Shown: positions 56,341-64,000 of the stretch, piece by piece
Layout of the letters: each line of letters begins with the position of its first letter
Numbering within the stretch: the stretch's first letter is position 1
Origin: Rhodococcus xishaensis
GTDB lineage: Bacteria > Actinomycetota > Actinomycetes > Mycobacteriales > Mycobacteriaceae
Reading direction: 5' to 3'
NCBI RefSeq assembly: GCF_004011825.1
Contig: NZ_RKLO01000005.1
Coordinates: forward strand, 1-64,000
Length of the DNA stretch: 64,000 nt
The notes under the pieces: generated by a model
The model's database searches: none
Told to the model about the DNA's origin: nothing
What the model saw: the letters and a program-made list of their open reading frames with translations, nothing else
Position numbers and translations under genes: made by a program

Positions 56341-56913
56341 TCAGGCGCTCAGCTCGAGCGTCAGTTTCACCAGCGTGGCCGCTGCCTCACAGGGATCGGG
56401 ATGTTCCGCGGCCTGATACTGCACCCACCAGCCGATCACGCCCGAGTCCGGTGCGCCCGAAGCGATCCCACACGTGCCGGGGTCCTGCGGTTGCCGCGAA
56501 AGCACCGCGCGCCGGCCGTCGACGCTCACATCCTCGACCGCGTAGCCCAGACGGTGCGAGGTTTCGCGCTCGACAGCGAGCGAACCGGTCTCGAACCAGT
56601 TGAACGTCACACGAACCGGACCGGCCGGTCCTGCCACCGACCAGCGACAGATCGCACCGAAGAACCCCCGGTCGATCGCTCCCCCACCGACCGCGTGGGC
56701 TATCTGATCAGAATCGACGGCATCGCATTCGGTGAGCAGCGCCGCATACCTCGACGACGTCCCCGGCGTAGCCGCGCCCTCAGGCCTCGGAGCGCCCGGG
56801 ACCGTCGCTGCACACCCGGTAAGGACGAGGACACCGATAGTCGCGGCCGCGGCGGTTGCGATGGACGAGACTCGCGCCCGCTGTTCGTCCCTACCGATCA
56901 TTCTGACTGGCAC
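56341..56913 (-). CDS. DUF3558-like lipoprotein
   Basis: 190 aa from GTG 56913, or 186 from ATG 56901. Signal peptide with lipobox: ATAAAATIGVLVLTGCAATV, cleavage before the cysteine. Mature part: LTECDAVDSDQIAHAVGGGA, RGFFGAICRWSVAGPAGPVR, VTFNWFETGSLAVERETSHR, then GTCGIASGAPDSGVIGWWVQ. This matches the DUF3558 lipoprotein family common in actinomycetes. Function unknown, probably cell-envelope. Coupled to the small gene upstream (4-bp gap). Confidence 0.87.
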   Translation of the reverse strand: MPVRMIGRDEQRARVSSIATAAAATIGVLVLTGCAATVPGAPRPEGAATPGTSSRYAALLTECDAVDSDQIAHAVGGGAIDRGFFGAICRWSVAGPAGPVRVTFNWFETGSLAVERETSHRLGYAVEDVSVDGRRAVLSRQPQDPGTCGIASGAPDSGVIGWWVQYQAAEHPDPCEAAATLVKLTLELSA

Positions 56914-56917
56914 GCCC

Positions 56918-57100
56918 TCACCCGACCTGTCGGCACGGCGTTGCGGAAGACATGGTCGCGTGCTGGCCCTGTGACGCCGGGGCCGCGGGGCGCCCCAACC
57001 CGATATCGCCGTGGCGCTGTGAGACGAACGCGTTGAAATCGGGGAACGCCGCCTGAGGTACCTCAGGTTCGGTTGGCATCAACTGCGGACCGGTCGCCAT
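56918..57100 (-). CDS. Small hypothetical protein upstream of the lipoprotein gene
   Basis: 60 aa: MATGPQLMPTEPEVPQAAFP, DFNAFVSQRHGDIGLGRPAA. Proline- and alanine-rich, no membrane helix. ATG 57100 was chosen for AAGGA 8 nt upstream. It ends 4 bp before the lipoprotein gene. I do not recognise it; conserved spacing to the lipoprotein suggests a joint unit. Confidence 0.6.
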   Translation of the reverse strand: MATGPQLMPTEPEVPQAAFPDFNAFVSQRHGDIGLGRPAAPASQGQHATMSSATPCRQVG

Positions 57101-57243
57101 GGACAACATCCTTCCCCAGAGTCGTCGCGAGCTGGCTGATCCCCCCACCGATCGCGGTATCGGGGCGTCGCCCCGGACGACCATCACACAGCGAGGCGCC
57201 CCGATGCTGCTCCTCCAAGCAAGTGCTACCGGCGAAGAAACCC

Positions 57244-57786
57244 CTACTCACTCACTGCGCGGAGAGAAGCGTCGAGCGAGCTCATGAGCTGCGCGAGGCG
57301 ACCCTTGCCAGCCGGCGCCAGGGGATAGCGGCTGAGTACATCAGCCAACGTCGGTGTGGCGCGCTGCCGAGCCTGCGCGACCAGCTCGTTCCCGACAGCG
57401 TGATCGTCGCCTGCGTTCAACTCGGCGATGCGCGCTGCACTTGCCGCAGCGCGCAGGATGTGACCGACCTGGTGGGCCTTGGCGATCGGGTGAAGGTAGG
57501 CAGCGGACGCCGCATCGCCAGCGCAGCGTGCAGCGAGACGCGCAGCCTCGGTGGGTGCCTCCTTCGCAGCTCGGTGTGCGTCCACCGAAGCTACGCGCTG
57601 CAGCTCGGTCCTTCTCGCGCCGTTCACGAACTCCCACGCAGCATCGATGGCGGCGCGGGGCCGAGGATCATCAGGACTCACGGCCTCGAACACCGGTAGG
57701 ACTTCCTGAGCGCTTTCCGCCACGTAGCGTGCGACAGCGCGCAGTTCCTCGATGGTCAGCTCGAAGTCGCCGGACCTGGTCGTCAT
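57244..57786 (-). CDS. Imm5-like putative immunity protein
   Basis: 180 aa, all-helical and alanine-rich. IEELRAVARYVAESAQEVLP, VFEAVSPDDPRPRAAIDAAW, EFVNGARRTELQRVASVDAH, RAAKEAPTEAARLAARCAGD closely follow the Imm5 pattern of putative immunity proteins found in polymorphic toxin systems (cluster of aspartates and P-R-P-R-x-A). Start ATG 57786; the longer open frame is not supported. No toxin gene is adjacent; the next feature is the unusual repeat array. Confidence 0.75.
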   Translation of the reverse strand: MTTRSGDFELTIEELRAVARYVAESAQEVLPVFEAVSPDDPRPRAAIDAAWEFVNGARRTELQRVASVDAHRAAKEAPTEAARLAARCAGDAASAAYLHPIAKAHQVGHILRAAASAARIAELNAGDDHAVGNELVAQARQRATPTLADVLSRYPLAPAGKGRLAQLMSSLDASLRAVSE

Positions 57787-58282
57787 AGCCGAAGCTTCCC
57801 ATGTACCCCCACCCGCCTGCGGACGCGATGGTTCACGCAGGCCCCGGCATTGAGACGGTCGGCGTTCCAGACCGCTAGGTTGCGCTGTCGGTGTGGAGCA
57901 ACGTTTTCGCCACTCCATTGGAGCAACCAGGCCCGATAGAAGCATCGCCGCGATCAGGGTCTCGGGAAACTGACTCCGAGCTCGATTGGTTTGTTCGGCT
58001 TGGTATTCGAAGCTGGCAGTCCGGGGTTCGCTTGCCTGTGGAGCGGGAATATGAACTGGCCGCCGGTTCGGCTCGGGCACCGGTTCCAGGAGTCGACCGA
58101 TCCCGAACCGCGTCCCCACGAAGCCTGCGCAAGGCTGATCGCAAGTCCAAGGAAGCGGAAGCCGAGTCGGCCGCAGAGCGGACCGGGTCCGCCGTTCTCG
58201 GAGGGTGGTCGTCGAACTGAGTGTGGTTGTTACGGTCCATGTTTGGGCTATTTACGCTTTGGGTGTCCCGGGGTATCATGGC
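57787..58282. other. Intergenic region before the repeat array
   Basis: About 495 bases. The longest open frame (57891-58220, plus, 109 aa) has no recognisable features. It probably holds the promoter of the Imm5-like gene near its left end. I see no RNA gene in it. Confidence 0.5.
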
Positions 58283-58826
58283 GGCATGTTTTTGGGACGG
58301 GTTGAGGGCATTGTGACGGGCCGTGGCGCGGCGCACGCAAGCGCGCCCCCGCCTCTGGCTCCCCTCGGTTGGCGTCGAGGAAGCTGGCGGTGAATACCGT
58401 GCCCCAATCTTAGCCGTGCACTAGGTGTTGTGTTGGAGGAGTGTACCTTTCGGCCCTCTAGCTGGTGAGCTGTGGTCTCGCATTTCGAGAGGATCGCAGC
58501 GGCGCCACCGGTCCAAGGCAGCGTGACAGGCCGTGATGCGGCGCGCGCAAGCGCGCCCCACCTCTCGCTCCTCCCGGTTGGCTTCGAGGAAGCTGGCGGT
58601 GAGTACCGTGTTCCCAATTTTGGTCGCGTTCTAGTTGTTGTGTTGGGGGAGTGCATGTTTCGCCTCCCTTACCGGTGAGCTGCGGGATCGCATCTCGAGC
58701 GGAGCGCAGCACACCGATTAGGGAGCGCAGCACACCGATTAGGGGCGGCGTGACAGGCCGCGGAGCGGCGCACACAAGCGAGCCCCGCTTCACGCTCCCC
58801 CGGTTGACCCGAGAAGGAGGTGGACT

Positions 58827-58952
58827 GTGAACGAGTCTATTATCATCAATCATGCGCTAGGCGTTGCATCGGAGGAGTGGACGTTAGTGTCCGGACCTCA
58901 TCTTTCCGCGTACAGCGACCGTCTTATCGTTCCCCAATCAATCATGTGCTAG
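58827..58952 (+). CDS. Array microORF a
   Basis: 41 aa from GTG, with AAGGAGG 6 nt upstream. Contains NHALGVASEEWTL, the array's peptide core, after a hydrophobic VNESIII start. It stops at a TAG embedded in the next unit motif GTGCTAGGT. Coding status is uncertain. Confidence 0.4.
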   Translation: MNESIIINHALGVASEEWTLVSGPHLSAYSDRLIVPQSIMC

Positions 58953-59101
58953 GTATTCTGTTGGCGGAGTGCACATTTGGGGTCTCCTGCAGTTGAGCTG
59001 CGGCCCCGCGCCTCGAACGGAGCGCGCCAACACCGATTGAGGGCAGGGCGACAGGCCCCCGTGCCTCGCTCTGCCCGGTTGACTCGGAAAGGAGGTGGAC
59101 T

Positions 59102-59143
59102 GTGGAGATTCTTATTTGTTGTTCTTGGTGTTCACAAGGTTGA
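59102..59143 (+). CDS. Array microORF, truncated copy
   Basis: 13 aa from GTG after AAAGGAGGTGGACT: V-E-I-L-I-C-C-S-W-C-S-Q-G. The conserved core is missing and a second Shine-Dalgarno stretch follows at once, so this looks like a deleted or partial duplication of a unit start. Confidence 0.25.
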   Translation: MEILICCSWCSQG

Positions 59144-59162
59144 CTCGAGAAGGAAGTGGACT

Positions 59163-59282
59163 ATGAATTACATATTCATCAATCGCGTGCTAGACGTTCC
59201 ATCGGAGGTGTGGACGCTTGCGATCGGCCCGGTTGCCACCGGGCGCGACACCATTGGACTTTCTCTACCATTCGCGTTCTAG
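59163..59282 (+). CDS. Array microORF b
   Basis: 39 aa from ATG after AAGGAAG. Hydrophobic MNYIFI start, then NRVLDVPSEVWTLAIGP and a C-terminal LSLPFAF. Nearly identical at both ends to microORF f (60188-60289), with an insertion of six residues in between. Confidence 0.45.
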   Translation: MNYIFINRVLDVPSEVWTLAIGPVATGRDTIGLSLPFAF

Positions 59283-59432
59283 GTGTTCCGTTGGAGGACT
59301 GCACGTTTGGGCTCCCCTGCCAGCGAGCTGCGGTCCGGCGTTTCGAACGGAGCGCAGCAACACCGATTGAGGGCCAGTGTGACAGGCCCCCGCCTCTCGC
59401 TCCCCCCGGTTGACTCGAAAAGGAGGTGGACT

Positions 59433-59519
59433 ATGTGTTGCATTTTTTTCTTGAATCGTGTGCTTGGCGTTGCATTGGAGGAGTGGACGTTTGTGTACGG
59501 ACCTCGTCTCTCTCTGTAA
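59433..59519 (+). CDS. Array microORF c
   Basis: 28 aa from ATG after AAAGGAGGTGGACT. Hydrophobic MCCIFFL then NRVLGVALEEWTFVYGPR and LSL before TAA. The best match to the array consensus and among the best signals for real translation. Confidence 0.5.
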   Translation: MCCIFFLNRVLGVALEEWTFVYGPRLSL

Positions 59520-59678
59520 GGCGACTACTTTCTCTCTAGCTGGTGAGCTGCGGTCCCGGGTTTCGAGCGGAGCGCAGCGACACCGATCGAGGGCAGCGTG
59601 AAAGGCCGCGGAGCGCCACGCGCAAGCGCGCCCCCTCGCCCCTCGCTCCCCAAGGTTGACTCAAGAAGGAGGTTGACC

Positions 59679-59777
59679 GTGGATCTTCTTATTGGTCGTG
59701 TGCTGGGTGTTCTGTTGGAGGAGTGGATGTTTGGACGGGCCCAACACTGTAATCCCAATGTCGGGCTCCCCTGTTAG
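59679..59777 (+). CDS. Array microORF d
   Basis: 32 aa from GTG after AAGGAGG. VDLLIGRVLGVLLEEWMFG, then a divergent tail ending in GLPC before TAG; the GLPC ending resembles the second motif of other units, as if the two motifs had been joined by a deletion. Confidence 0.45.
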   Translation: MDLLIGRVLGVLLEEWMFGRAQHCNPNVGLPC

Positions 59778-59914
59778 TGAGCTACGGTCGCGCATCTCGA
59801 ACAGAGCGCAGCAACACCGATCGAGGGCAGCGTGACAGGCCGCGGTGCGGCGCGCGTGAGCACGCCCCGGCCTCTTACTCCCCAAGATTGACTCTAGAAG
59901 GAGGTGGACGGACG

Positions 59915-60022
59915 GTGACTTGGATTCTCTCTGCCAATCGTGTGCTAGGTGTTCTGTTGGAGGAGTGGACGTTTGCGCGGACCCCGTGCGCTATCAACGA
60001 CAGTGGATATGTCGTGTGCTAG
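59915..60022 (+). CDS. Array microORF e
   Basis: 35 aa from GTG; the Shine-Dalgarno AAGGAGG is 10-11 nt upstream because of a small GACG duplication. Contains NRVLGVLLEEWTFAR and ends at the TAG of GTGCTAGGT, like microORF a. Confidence 0.45.
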   Translation: MTWILSANRVLGVLLEEWTFARTPCAINDSGYVVC

Positions 60023-60187
60023 GTGTTGTGTTCGAGGAGTGCACGTTTCAGCTCTCTACCTGGTGAGCTGCGGTCCCGCGCTTCGAACGGAGCGCAGCAA
60101 CACCGATTGAAGGCGGCGTGACAGGACGCGGTGCGGCGCGCAAGCGTGCCCCCCGCCTCTCACTCCTCTCGGAGAAAGAAGTGGACT

Positions 60188-60289
60188 ATGAATTACATAT
60201 TCATCAATCGTGTGCTAGACGTTCCATTGGAGGTGTGGACGCTTGCGTTCGGGCCCCGCATTGGATTATCTCTGCCATTCGCGTTCTAG
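60188..60289 (+). CDS. Array microORF f
   Basis: 33 aa from ATG; weaker Shine-Dalgarno (AAAGAAG). Hydrophobic MNYIFI, NRVLDVPLEVWTLAFGPR, C-terminal LSLPFAF. Close duplicate of microORF b. Confidence 0.45.
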   Translation: MNYIFINRVLDVPLEVWTLAFGPRIGLSLPFAF

Positions 60290-60645
60290 ATGTTCCGTTG
60301 GAGGACTGCACGTTTGGGCTCCCCTGCCAGCGAGCTGCGGTCCCCGGGTCGAACGGAGCGCAGCAACACCGATTGAGGGCCAGTGTGACAGGCCCCCGCC
60401 TCGCACTCTCCCCGGTTGACTCGAGAAGGAGGTTGACGGCTGGGTGTTCTGTTGCAGAAGTTGATGTTTGGACCGGCCATTCGCACGTGTGCGATCGACG
60501 ACCGTGGGCTCTACTGTCCGTGAGCTGTGGTCTCGCGCTTCGAGCGTAGCGCAGCGATAGCGATTGAGGGCAGCGCGACAGTCCGCAGTACGGCGCGCGC
60601 AAGCGCGCCCCCGCCTCTCGCTCTCCTCGGAACAGGAAGTGGACT

Positions 60646-60735
60646 GTGATCTACAACACATTTGTCAATCGTGTGCTGGACGTTGCATTGGAGGAGTGGA
60701 CGTCGTTCGTGATCGGACCCCGTATTGGACTATAG
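60646..60735 (+). CDS. Array microORF g
   Basis: 29 aa from GTG after AGGAAG. VIYNTFV, then NRVLDVALEEWTSFVIGPR and IGL before TAG. Directly followed by the second-type motif that would read L-L-E-E-C-T-F-G-L-P-C-R and stop. Confidence 0.45.
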   Translation: MIYNTFVNRVLDVALEEWTSFVIGPRIGL

Positions 60736-60958
60736 GTGTTCTGTTGGAGGAGTGCACATTTGGGCTCCCCTGCAGGTGAGCTGCGGTCCCGTGCTTCGAA
60801 CGGAGCGCAGCAACACCGATTGAGGGCAGTGGCTATTCGGAAGTTTGGTTCGCGCGTCAGGGGCCAGGGTTACAGAGACGCCCGACGGCCGGTTCGCAGT
60901 CGAGATCACGCGCATCCCCACACGCAATCTGACCAACAGAAGTCGGCTGTCAGGTGAT

Positions 60959-60994
60959 CTGCCGCCGCATCCATAGTGTCGATGGCGGCGGCAG
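60959..60994 (-). terminator. Terminator-like hairpin after the amidase gene
   Basis: CTGCCGCCGCATC and GATGGCGGCGGCAG form a long GC-rich stem with one bulge around a 9-base loop. Located about 80 bases after the amidase stop on the minus strand and also at the right border of the repeat array. Confidence 0.65.
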
Positions 60995-61075
60995 TCGCGT
61001 CCCCGTCGGTCTCACCGGCGAGTTTCGCCTCTGCGAAGGCGGCGTCGACCCAGCAGCAACGACTCATCTACCGGC

Positions 61076-62473
61076 TCAGACAGGGGGGCGCCGAAGATGC
61101 CAGTCGGTTGCACTCTGGAAGGCGCTTCCCGCTCTGGCCAGGAGGAGCTCGTCGAGGTGGCGCGCCACGAGTTGAAAGCCGATCGGCACGCCGGCGCCGT
61201 CGAAGCCGCCCGGCAGGGTGATCGTCGGATTTCCGGAAAAGTTGAACGGGGCGGTGTACCGGAAGACGTTCGGCAGGTCGTCGGAGCTGTACAGCAGCTG
61301 TGCGAAGCGATCGAGCGTCAAGTCCGCCACGGGCAGGACAGGAAGAACAACTAGGTCAAGATCCTCGAAGTGTGCCTCGAACGTGCCCGAGAAGACTCGC
61401 CTCTCGTCTTCGATACGGGCTATATCTATGCCCGACACTGCGTACGCGGAACCCAGGAGCTCCCGTATCCACCGACCGTACTCTCCGGCCCGCGACGGAA
61501 ACGTCTCTTCGTGCACGACTGCCGCCTCTGGCCCCGCGTAAGCGCCCCATCCGGCTGCCAACCCCATCGTGGACGGCAGCGACACCTGGCAAACGTCCGC
61601 GCCCAGGCTCTCGAACGTTGCCAGCGCATCGCGAAAAACCTCCGCCACCGGTGGCTCGACCACGTCGAACGTAGCCGTGGGGTCGAACCCGATCCGGATT
61701 CCTTGCATGTCCGACGGAGCCACGGCGTAGTCGGGCACCTCCGCTCTGACGGCGGTCGGATCGTTCACGTCGGGCCCGGCGATGGCTCGCAGCACGTGGT
61801 AGGCGTCCTCGGCGCTTCGCGCCATCGGCCCGACAGTGTCCAGCGACGGCGCCATCGCGAACACGCCATGGACGCTGACGCGTCCCCATGTCGGCTTGAT
61901 GCCGGTGACTGCGTTCATGGTGCTCGGGGTGCGGATCGAGCCGCCTGTGTCGCTACCGAGGCTGGCCGTACACATCCCGGCTGCGGTCGCGACGGCTGAG
62001 CCGCTGGAGGACGCTCCGGCCCAGTAGCTCGCGTTCCACGGGTTCACAACCGCCGGAAAGTCGGGGTGGTACTCGCCTCCGGCAGCCTCGCACAGGTTCA
62101 GCTTCCCGAGCAGCACTGCTCCGGCACGACGCAGGCGAGAAACGACCGTTGCGTCGAAGGCGGGTATGAAGTTTCGGTGGATTGACATACCAGCGGTGGT
62201 CGGAATGCCCTCTGTGTAGACAAGGTCCTTCACGCCAATCGGAATGCCGTGAAGGGGTCCCCGGTGTTCGCCGCGGGAGAGCTCCTCCTCGGCTCGCTGT
62301 GCGTCGGCGAGAGCACTCTCGGCCAAGACCGTCAGGTAGGCCTCGAGATCAGGGTTGAGCCGATCGATACGCTCCAAGTGGGCTCGGGTCACCTCAACTG
62401 GCGACAATGCCCCGCTGCCGAAGTCCCGGGAAAGATCGGAGATCGAGGCGTAGCACAGATCGATTTCTTCCAT
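61076..62473 (-). CDS. Amidase signature family hydrolase
   Basis: 465 aa. The Ser-cisSer-Lys triad is visible: GIPIGVKDLVYTEGIPTTAG (lysine), YWAGASSSGSAVATAAG (cis-serine) and LGSDTGGSIRTPSTMNAVTG (nucleophile serine). It lacks the full GatCAB context, so it is a stand-alone amidase hydrolysing an unknown amide rather than GatA. It follows the methyltransferase gene by 55 bp on the same strand and may be co-transcribed with it. Confidence 0.93.
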   Translation of the reverse strand: MEEIDLCYASISDLSRDFGSGALSPVEVTRAHLERIDRLNPDLEAYLTVLAESALADAQRAEEELSRGEHRGPLHGIPIGVKDLVYTEGIPTTAGMSIHRNFIPAFDATVVSRLRRAGAVLLGKLNLCEAAGGEYHPDFPAVVNPWNASYWAGASSSGSAVATAAGMCTASLGSDTGGSIRTPSTMNAVTGIKPTWGRVSVHGVFAMAPSLDTVGPMARSAEDAYHVLRAIAGPDVNDPTAVRAEVPDYAVAPSDMQGIRIGFDPTATFDVVEPPVAEVFRDALATFESLGADVCQVSLPSTMGLAAGWGAYAGPEAAVVHEETFPSRAGEYGRWIRELLGSAYAVSGIDIARIEDERRVFSGTFEAHFEDLDLVVLPVLPVADLTLDRFAQLLYSSDDLPNVFRYTAPFNFSGNPTITLPGGFDGAGVPIGFQLVARHLDELLLARAGSAFQSATDWHLRRPPV

Positions 62474-62528
62474 TTCCTCACCCCCACTACCTCACTATCG
62501 CGCAGCTATGGGCAGGTGCCGTACCGCG

Positions 62529-63278
62529 TCACTCCCGGACACACTCCATGACGACCGCGGGTGGATAGTTCAGGTAGTCGTCCCAGTAGTCGCCTTCGTC
62601 GCCGGCCTCGGGCGCGGGCGACAGTTCGGGCATGTGCACCGCGAAATCACGGAAGCCAGCATCACGGAAAGCTGATTCGTACGCGTCGATCGGCAGGTAG
62701 TAGTTGTCGATGACAAGGGGGGAATCACCCAGGAGTGCCGTCAACTGGATCGGTGCTCCCTCGAACACGGACTCGGCCAGCTCTATCTCGAATCCGTACT
62801 TGCGGTAGTTGGGCACCTGCCCAAACGAGTACAAGTCCGGATTGGTGGTGATGGTGACGAACCGTCCTCCCGACTTGACGCGGCACGCCAATCCGCGACA
62901 CATGCGCCCAAGTTCGTCGCGGTCTCGCGCGTACATCAGCAGGTAAGCGGCGACCGCGACGTCGAAATCCTGTTGCGGCACAACCGAGCGGGCGTCGGCA
63001 ACGATGTATTCGATGCCCAGCGGCTCCCGCTCCTCCTGTTTTCGGGCCAGGCCGATCATTTTCTCGGAAATGTCTAGCCCCACCATGGGGGCCGCACCGG
63101 CCCGGCGCAAGATTCGGGTGAAATCCCCGGAACCGCACGCGACATCGAGAACCTTTTTGCCCTTCACGTCGCCGACGTGCTTCAGGAACGAATACGCCTC
63201 GATTCGGGATCGGACAGGAAAGGTCTTGGTCTTCTCGTACTTCTCGGCGATGAGGCCTTCGTTGTAGTCGGTGACCAT
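62529..63278 (-). CDS. Class I SAM-dependent methyltransferase
   Basis: 249 aa. SAM motif VLDVACGSGDFTRILRRAGA, VGLDISEKMIGLARKQEERE, IEYIVADARSVVPQQDFDVA, YLLMYARDRDELGRMCRGLA. Methyltransf_25/ToxA-like small-molecule methyltransferase; substrate unknown. ATG 63278 has GGGGGG 4-9 nt upstream; two further ATGs lie upstream in frame. The neighbouring amidase may act on the same compound. Confidence 0.9.
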   Translation of the reverse strand: MVTDYNEGLIAEKYEKTKTFPVRSRIEAYSFLKHVGDVKGKKVLDVACGSGDFTRILRRAGAAPMVGLDISEKMIGLARKQEEREPLGIEYIVADARSVVPQQDFDVAVAAYLLMYARDRDELGRMCRGLACRVKSGGRFVTITTNPDLYSFGQVPNYRKYGFEIELAESVFEGAPIQLTALLGDSPLVIDNYYLPIDAYESAFRDAGFRDFAVHMPELSPAPEAGDEGDYWDDYLNYPPAVVMECVRE

Positions 63279-63437
63279 GCTGCCCCCCATGGTTGTCATG
63301 CGGCCGCGTCGGGCACGCATCCCCGCAGCACGCGACAGTCTCTCCGAGAGTTTACGCGCGGTGCGCTGTCACGTCTTGATGCCAGCAGAGCAAGTTCTCA
63401 CACGACCTCTTTGGAAGCGCTTGTCTGGTCGAACGAG

Positions 63438-64000
63438 CTAGGCCCGAACCATTAGTGGCGGCGGACGGGAGCGAACCAGATGCCGGGGAGACACCCGCTC
63501 GCGAATCTGCCCGCGAATCCGGTCTTTCAGGCCTTCGGCTAGTTCCGTGCCGCCCAACAGAACCGCGACGAGCGGCATCCAATGTGCGCCGTCCGCAAGA
63601 TCCACGCCGACCACCAACGCGTCCGCGATCTCTGGAATCTTGTCCAACGTGGAAAGTGTCCGCACTTCCCATTCGGATTCCGTGGCGGTTCAGATGGAAT
63701 CAGATTTCCCGTGCATTGGAACGGCGCCCCTTTCGGTGATCGTGGTCCAGGCGCCATGGCGCCACACACCGGGGAAGAAGACGAAATAGACTTCGCGGTA
63801 ACGCTTTCCGTCCGGAGCGTGCACACTTTGGCGCCGAACCGATAGTCGTCCGCGGTATCACTATATTCTCTTCGAGTTGACCGAGCCGAGCGTGTGCGGC
63901 GGGCGCGGAGCAGTCCTGTCCACACGCCAGGTAACCGCCGACGCGATTGCGCACCCCGACATCCTTCTCACTCCCTGTCCCTCTACGCCGTTCTCACTCG
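63438..64000 (-). pseudogene. Decayed acetoacetyl-CoA synthetase pseudogene (runs off right edge)
   Basis: Fragments in shifting frames line up in order with the intact protein at 5994-8009. From the right: VGGYLACGQDCSAPAAHARL (a deletion joins two parts of the intact sequence), then ADDYRFGAKV, a second large deletion, DGKRYREVYFVFFPGVWRHG, MHGKSDSI followed by an in-frame TGA, LNRHGIRMGSADTFHV in another frame, and IPEIADALVVGVDLADGAHW to SPRHLVRSR before the stop at 63438. At least two frameshifts and two deletions are seen. Clearly non-functional; it continues beyond the window. Confidence 0.88.

Follow-up and report, generated by a model that had tools for sequence, protein, structure and literature searches.

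A tandem array inside a Rhodococcus xishaensis contig is probably an internalised telomere of a linear replicon

Introduction

Tandem repeats that carry short open reading frames (ORFs) are familiar from the LDR and SIB repeats of type I toxin loci. Rhodococcus telomeres have been described as invertrons whose termini are inverted repeats and whose central motif is GCTXCGC; the same source notes genes for Tap and for a terminal protein (TP) (PMC7276702). The term "pseudo-telomere" is in use for Streptomyces (PMC8743542), and we take it, on our own reading, to denote telomere-like sequence lying away from replicon ends. Telomere and pseudo-telomere are both known kinds of element. Here, we describe an array of about ten diverged units, arranged head to tail, in a stretch of 64,000 nucleotides from Rhodococcus xishaensis (NZ_RKLO01000005.1); this stretch is referred to below as the window, all unqualified coordinates are positions in it, and its own genome is designated G000. 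We conclude, with a probability of about 0.87, that the array is the telomere of a linear replicon of the Rhodococcus type, now internalised (a pseudo-telomere), in which the subterminal unit multiplied in tandem before the whole was duplicated. In the literature searched, outside which most subscription journals lie, we found no description of tandem amplification with diversified micro-ORFs at two sites in two species.

The unit is present at two places only in its own genome, the window array and a second array at 127.7-129.7 kb of contig C17, and both arrays recur in Rhodococcus spongiicola LHW50502 (G011; contigs C25 and C24), bringing the total to four. An earlier sequence-only reading of the window had considered a dedicated system at this locus, one that would become unlikely if the unit proved to belong to a genome-wide family of miniature inverted-repeat transposable elements (MITEs) or repetitive extragenic palindromes (REPs). 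With two places in the genome, a MITE or REP family is not supported; nor is the array confined to one locus, given the related array on C17 and both arrays in a second species.

Homology to the telomeres of linear replicons

The evidence that carries our interpretation comes from comparison with plasmid ends. When the array (58800-60860) was compared with 72,556 plasmid records, 11 matched; 10 of these are Prescottella equi plasmids, aligned at record bases 41-252, and the other is a Rhodococcus plasmid aligned 40 bp from its end. The 290-bp telomere of one matched plasmid, used in turn as the query, retrieved 74 plasmid records including its own (63 from Rhodococcus, 11 from Prescottella), and among the matches listed 59 of 60 fall within 350 bp of a record end, record H22 being the exception. 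Twelve plasmid ends were fetched, 10 from records annotated as linear and 2 as circular, with pRHL1, pRHL3, pBD2 and pNSL1 among them, and the array unit can be aligned to the final 250-300 bp of linear replicons. In the multiple alignment, the left edge of the array is the inner telomere border (TATGATGGG.GCATGAT.TCGGGACGGG), unit 1 of two arrays falls on this inner part as well, and the C17 and G011 C25 arrays have tails that align on the terminal palindromes, ending near the last base of the plasmids. The tail of the fourth array (G011 C24), which stands outside the multiple alignment, reads alike, and the sequence beyond the outer border, GGC[CT]ATTCGGAAGTTTGG, is common to all four. Additionally, the GCTNCGC motif occurs 14 times in the array, as compared with a mean of 2.9 and a maximum of 11 in shuffled sequence and a mean of 3.2 and a maximum of 10 in segments elsewhere in the 64 kb.

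The same 290-bp query, applied within the genus, identified the left edge of each of the four arrays, an internal site in G007 and a contig end in G005, together with weaker matches in G008 and G012. The G007 assembly is a single contig of 5.1 Mb in which a single-unit telomere lies internally, at 909 kb (L044:7080-7340), and the weaker G008 match, at C1:3673248, may be another internal telomere. In the family-wide search, which scored 2 candidates per genome, the query matched contig C1 of G253 at bases 17-129 and 7,804,637-7,804,749, a pair placed as would be expected of the two ends of a linear chromosome.

The telomere unit of pVAPN is flanked by two similar motifs, GTTGAGAGCAGCGCGAC and GATCGACGGCAGCGTGAC. 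A stretch resembling the second motif of the array units is found in the pVAPN subtelomere about 342 bases from the end (L046; 23 of 28 bases, shuffle maximum 19), and a lesser likeness lies about 352 bases from the G005 end (L043; 19 of 28, equal to the shuffle maximum). In the other 12 of 14 telomere sequences the match is at or below the shuffle maximum, and we suggest only tentatively that the second motif may be subtelomeric DNA.

Several observations weigh against an internalised telomere, or at least against a purely passive one. The window copy is devoid of the terminal palindromes kept in the other three arrays, though the sequence on both sides of them is retained; tandem units occur in none of the 14 aligned telomeres (the internal telomere of G007 plus 13 ends); a scan of six ORFs next to the array revealed no gene recognisable as linear-plasmid backbone; and the promoter hexamers described below are preserved while the spacer between them drifts, a pattern that a pure scar would not predict. 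One TP type was detected in none of 14 genus genomes, and its Tap partner gave just one weak stretch, in G006; this absence says little because G005, which has a telomere end, has neither as well.

Architecture of the array

The features of the locus are collected in Table 1. A repeat search recovered nine copies of a 128-nt reference at 60-100% identity, spaced by 318, 330, 220, 234, 286, 267, 190 and 256 nt, and a second family of 47 nt with 15 copies; our ten-unit description combines these two families with the leader family, and its borders (approximately 58303 to 60830) were set by hand and are approximate. Tandem Repeats Finder (TRF) detects just the first two units and a 21-bp duplication, and the unit copies are therefore diverged. 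That duplication, a perfect tandem one at 58701-58744 in unit 2, is not seen in the R. spongiicola orthologue. The existence of the array is far beyond chance, and it is assembled in two genomes.

A typical unit consists of a GC-rich palindromic leader, a C/T-rich stretch, in most units an AAGGAGG-type Shine-Dalgarno site with an ATG or GTG start, a core, and a second palindrome. The core reads VLGVxLEEWTF, and some units have a second core copy in which Cys replaces Trp (VLGVxLEECTF). The sequence-only reading had described about ten diverged tandem units of 190-330 bp at 58283-60832, and the repeat families bear this out, with the adjustment that the element begins just to the left, at the promoter-like site. 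It had also given every unit the same layout of leader, optional hairpin, Shine-Dalgarno site and micro-ORF. The layout does recur; nevertheless, not every unit has a micro-ORF, because the first two lack the site and are out of frame. The second motif it pointed to is likewise present, not as a separate element but as a diverged copy of the micro-ORF core.

Table 1. Coordinates of the array, its units and micro-ORFs, and adjoining features
Feature	Positions	Strand	Remarks
Insertion	56914..64000 (on to ~64019)	.	~7 kb, borders inexact; between genes that neighbour each other in relatives
Promoter-like site TTTACG-17-TATCAT	58251..58279	+	the only one in 58100-60950 on either strand; 0.4 expected by chance
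Short ORF MFLGRVEG..	58286..58393	+	would start leaderless six bases past the -10; counterpart of the telomere's own ORF
Unit 1	58303..58512	+	no Shine-Dalgarno site; aligns with linear-plasmid telomere unit
Unit 2	58513..58739	+	no Shine-Dalgarno site; repeat search
Unit 3	58740..59038	+	repeat search
Micro-ORF VNESIIINHALGVASEEWTLVSGP.. (41 aa)	58827..58952	+	unit 3
Unit 4	59039..59368	+	repeat search
Micro-ORF MNYIFINRVLDVPSEVWTLAIGP.. (39 aa)	59163..59282	+	unit 4
Unit 5	59369..59587	+	repeat search
Micro-ORF MCCIFFLNRVLGVALEEWTFVYGPRLSL (28 aa)	59433..59519	+	unit 5
Unit 6	59588..59821	+	repeat search
Micro-ORF VDLLIGRVLGVLLEEWMFGRAQHCNPNVGLPC (32 aa)	59679..59777	+	unit 6
Unit 7	59822..60107	+	repeat search
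Micro-ORF VTWILSANRVLGVLLEEWTFARTP.. (35 aa)	59915..60022	+	unit 7
Unit 8	60108..60374	+	repeat search
Micro-ORF MNYIFINRVLDVPLEVWTLAFGP.. (33 aa)	60188..60289	+	unit 8
Unit 9	60375..60564	+	start codon and first part of core lost
Unit 10	60565..60830	+	repeat search
Micro-ORF VIYNTFVNRVLDVALEEWTSFVIGPRIGL (29 aa)	60646..60735	+	unit 10
Right edge	60829..60889	+	sequence past the former end, common to all four arrays; terminal palindromes absent in window copy
Amidase	61076..62473	-	adjoins right edge of array

Insertion beside rpsL and duplication of the block

Chromosomal genes flank the array on either side; it lies 58 kb inside a contig of 422 kb and not at a replicon end. It forms part of an insertion that contains an Imm5-like ORF, the array, an amidase gene and a methyltransferase gene. 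In G002, G007 and G010, matches to the lipoprotein gene at 56341-56913, a DUF3558 gene beside rpsL, and to the gene at 64020-64562 are only 53-128 nt apart; G004 has neither flanking gene, and its next gene follows rpsL directly, with no room for the insertion. With the flanks adjacent in three relatives and no room in the fourth, the insertion is absent from all four relatives examined. Nucleotide homology to G002 (blastn) ends at 56781, which falls in the 5' part of this lipoprotein gene; it is taken up again at 64020. The domain scan of six neighbouring ORFs identified the DUF3558 lipoprotein, the Imm5-like protein, the amidase and an S-adenosylmethionine (SAM) methyltransferase, two ORFs being without a match; the sequence-only statement that no transposase is present met nothing contrary among these six ORFs. 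The R. spongiicola amidase shares 89% identity with that of the window, and after it the scan ranks Bradyrhizobium proteins, at about 51%. Pieces of the amidase gene also follow the C17 array, and the fused block was therefore copied after the fusion. The Imm5-like putative immunity protein (57247-57786) occupies the left part of the insertion, and homologues are encoded at other places in G009 and G010. The C17 array, for its part, sits in a run of apparently tandem paralogues of YVTN-type secreted beta-propeller proteins (L009:2942-14973), as read from translations.

Distribution and conservation

Among 14 genus genomes, both arrays were found in G011, and short matches in G005 and G007 led to the telomeres described above. 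A covariance model of the unit junction, for which 12 candidates per genome were scored under strict filters so that copy numbers are lower bounds, gave matches in G000, in G011 and once near the G005 contig end, which makes 3 of 401 family genomes; under those filters no tandem copy was found in the 399 genomes other than G000 and G011. No match to the array was found among phage records, and an exact 31-base pattern had none in genome contigs, a set that possibly does not cover the own genome. Between the window array and R. spongiicola, 9 of 25 100-bp windows (58301-60800) are 92-99% identical and the other 16 are 53-87% identical; units in these 16 were taken as non-orthologous, a choice that favours conservation. 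The flanks compare at 80-94% (non-coding, 57801-58300), 94-96% (Imm5-like gene) and 85-96% (amidase), and conservation of the C17 array does not exceed that of its own flanks. Sequence conservation thus makes a weak case for use.

Promoter-like site and micro-ORFs

The promoter-like site at the left edge has its -10 element where telomeres carry TATGAT, and each of the four arrays has the consensus TTTAC[GC]-17-TATCAT. Comparison of the window array with that on C17 shows identity at 8 of 17 spacer positions, as compared with 5 of 6 for the -35, 6 of 6 for the -10 and 38 of the next 40 nt; between the C17 orthologues the spacer is identical at 12 of 17. Rhodococcus telomeres themselves show a TATGAT-like -10, six bases and then an ATG, which is a leaderless-type start, about 250 bp from the end. 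In 7 of the 11 ends in which this start was found, the frame that it opens runs without a stop as far as the record's last base (plasmid ends L046, L130, L133, L134, L135 and L138, and the G005 contig end L043). In this ORF, which runs toward the plasmid end, the ratio of nonsynonymous to synonymous differences (pN/pS) is 0.79 vs 1.26 and 1.01 in the other frames. No terminator-like site was found in the array, with 2.7 expected by chance.

Within the array, start codons stand 15, 18, 21 or 24 nt ahead of the core, and all 22 hand-picked starts (16 distinct stretches) are in frame with it. In a regular-expression pass over 36 core matches, the first start is in frame in 20 of the 20 units having both site and start, and all 7 units without a Shine-Dalgarno site, the first two of the window among them, are out of frame; one further unit (unit 9) has a site without a start, and the remaining 8 matches, classed as other, are mostly second motifs and include one site-less unit (G011 8401). 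At window 59102 and G011 9616 a start that follows a Shine-Dalgarno site is accompanied by no more than a core remnant; both starts are out of frame by hand reading and were excluded from the in-frame counts. These two and unit 9 are in neither codon set, that is, neither the set for starts and codon positions nor the whole-peptide pN/pS set, and the latter also leaves out the truncated cores C17 7456 and G011 8083.

Codon tests are near neutral (pN/pS 0.57-0.79). For the Trp-form core pN/pS is 0.76-0.79, but another frame is lower (0.55) and equally low values arise in 67 of 200 column shuffles; the Cys form has 0.59-0.65, with 48 of 200 shuffles equally low; whole peptides have 0.70, their core 0.67 and close pairs 0.57. 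Two orthologous peptide pairs each differ by a single amino-acid change and by no silent change. At codons -4 to -2 variability is lowest at the second position (0.28 vs 0.60 and 0.58), where T makes up 84%. The NRVLGVxLEEW part is conserved and the tails are variable, several of them ending in Cys motifs. Hydropathy of the N termini is not above that of shuffles (397 of 2000), and the maximum over 15 residues is 0.39-2.01 in 20 peptides, with no hydrophobic stretch of membrane length and an acidic LEEW core. Searches of 401 family genomes yielded no relatives of the peptides outside the two species below E 1e-3, all matches being at E 0.005 or worse, and Pfam, NCBIfam, PHROGs and PADLOC gave nothing beyond two weak Pfam matches, each from one member of 18.

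Alternative and additional readings

The most substantial alternative adds to the internalised telomere and is compatible with it, namely that the telomere has been domesticated, its promoter driving one polycistronic RNA that encodes diversified peptides of 21-41 aa under selection. The retention of the promoter hexamers in all four arrays despite spacer drift, the agreement of starts with the core frame in both passes, the out-of-frame state of site-less units, the low variability at second codon positions and the close-pair pN/pS all speak for such a use. Set against these are core ratios that shuffles often match and another frame undercuts, a whole-peptide ratio of 0.70, N-terminal hydropathy no higher than in shuffles, the out-of-frame starts at window 59102 and G011 9616 and the lost start of unit 9, the want of peptide relatives in the genomes and family databases searched, a single promoter-like site in numbers near chance, and the fact that paralogues are not independent; on balance we hold domestication to be possible, if doubtful. 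A fuller version is rather unlikely. In it the stranded telomere would have turned into a gene cassette, with an outward-directed, leaderless-type promoter and a polycistronic array; every amplified unit would provide its own Shine-Dalgarno site and encode a small peptide, of which the hydrophobic-VLGVxLEEWTF part is shared and the tail diversified, and telomere repeats would in this way act as a nursery of new genes.

The remaining explanations fare worse. A store of telomere sequence working as a recombination template or protein-binding reservoir for the linear replicons of the cell would fit the retained palindromes and GCTNCGC motifs, yet one telomere query found no telomere end besides the arrays in G000 or G011, and we consider such a role improbable; the TP and Tap results given above also bear on it, but say little. 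Three further possibilities had been raised by the sequence-only reading, and each loses ground here. An array of structured regulatory RNAs, for which the palindromes in the units and the promoter-like site at the left edge might be cited, is highly improbable in view of the leader palindrome, whose two alternative pairings contain 0 and 1 doubly changed pairs, no more than shuffles do, and of an Rfam scan of the array without a family at gathering score. Precursors akin to ribosomally synthesised and post-translationally modified peptides (RiPPs) would pair a leader-like shared core with variable tails that contain Cys and would be cleaved and modified enzymatically, much as the conserved NRVLGVxLEEW segment and the Cys-motif ends of several tails suggest; the six window ORFs scanned, however, include no typical modification enzyme, the C17 neighbours read, from translations only, as YVTN-type secreted proteins, and the peptides have no notable family match, which makes this origin very improbable indeed. 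Type I toxin loci like LDR or SIB share with the array tandem units carrying short ORFs, but the analogy is scarcely tenable given the modest hydropathy and acidic core of the peptides, a single promoter-like site on either strand rather than one per unit, the missing terminator-like site, the lack of any PADLOC match and an Rfam scan whose only match at E<=1 is a trypanosome small nucleolar RNA (snoRNA; E 0.98). A decayed element had been listed among the open explanations too; what that reading missed is the identity of the leader and hairpins as telomere sequence from linear replicons of Rhodococcus.

Proposed history and significance

Returning to the internalised telomere, we envisage that the end of a linear plasmid fused with DNA of the chromosome or of another source in the ancestor that both species share, that unequal recombination between the similar motifs flanking the subterminal unit then amplified this unit, and that the block together with its right flank, the amidase, was subsequently copied to a second place, the terminal palindromes later being lost from the window copy. 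Transcription, if any, would proceed outward from the single telomere-derived promoter across the whole array, and the Shine-Dalgarno micro-ORFs may or may not have gained use. The anatomy, telomere homology, insertion and duplication of the array are shown by the data. Much of the array appears to behave as a decaying scar, with a promoter that is possibly live and a possible, unproven micropeptide family.

The array is a record of how the end of a linear replicon came to lie within a bacterial chromosome, where its subterminal unit grew in tandem and was kept in two species. Movement of Rhodococcus replicons between the linear and the integrated state thereby becomes testable at the level of single bases. 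Should the micro-ORFs be translated, the array would in addition exemplify the birth of new small genes from telomere DNA.

Comparison with known systems

Unlike the LDR and SIB repeats, the array has no promoter-like site per unit, no transmembrane-like peptide and no Rfam match. Its likeness to the invertron telomeres of Rhodococcus linear plasmids (of the pRHL1, pRHL3, pBD2, pNSL1 and pVAPN type) extends to the unit sequence, the inner border, the palindromes and the GCTNCGC motif and, at the outer border, to the terminal palindromes in three of the four arrays; it differs from them in being internal, in having several to ten tandem units instead of one, and in having an extra Shine-Dalgarno site and core between the palindromes. 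With pseudo-telomeres it shares the location of telomere sequence inside a chromosome, for which the single-unit example in G007 is a precedent, and it departs from them in its tandem amplification, its micro-ORFs, its segmental duplication and its conservation between species.

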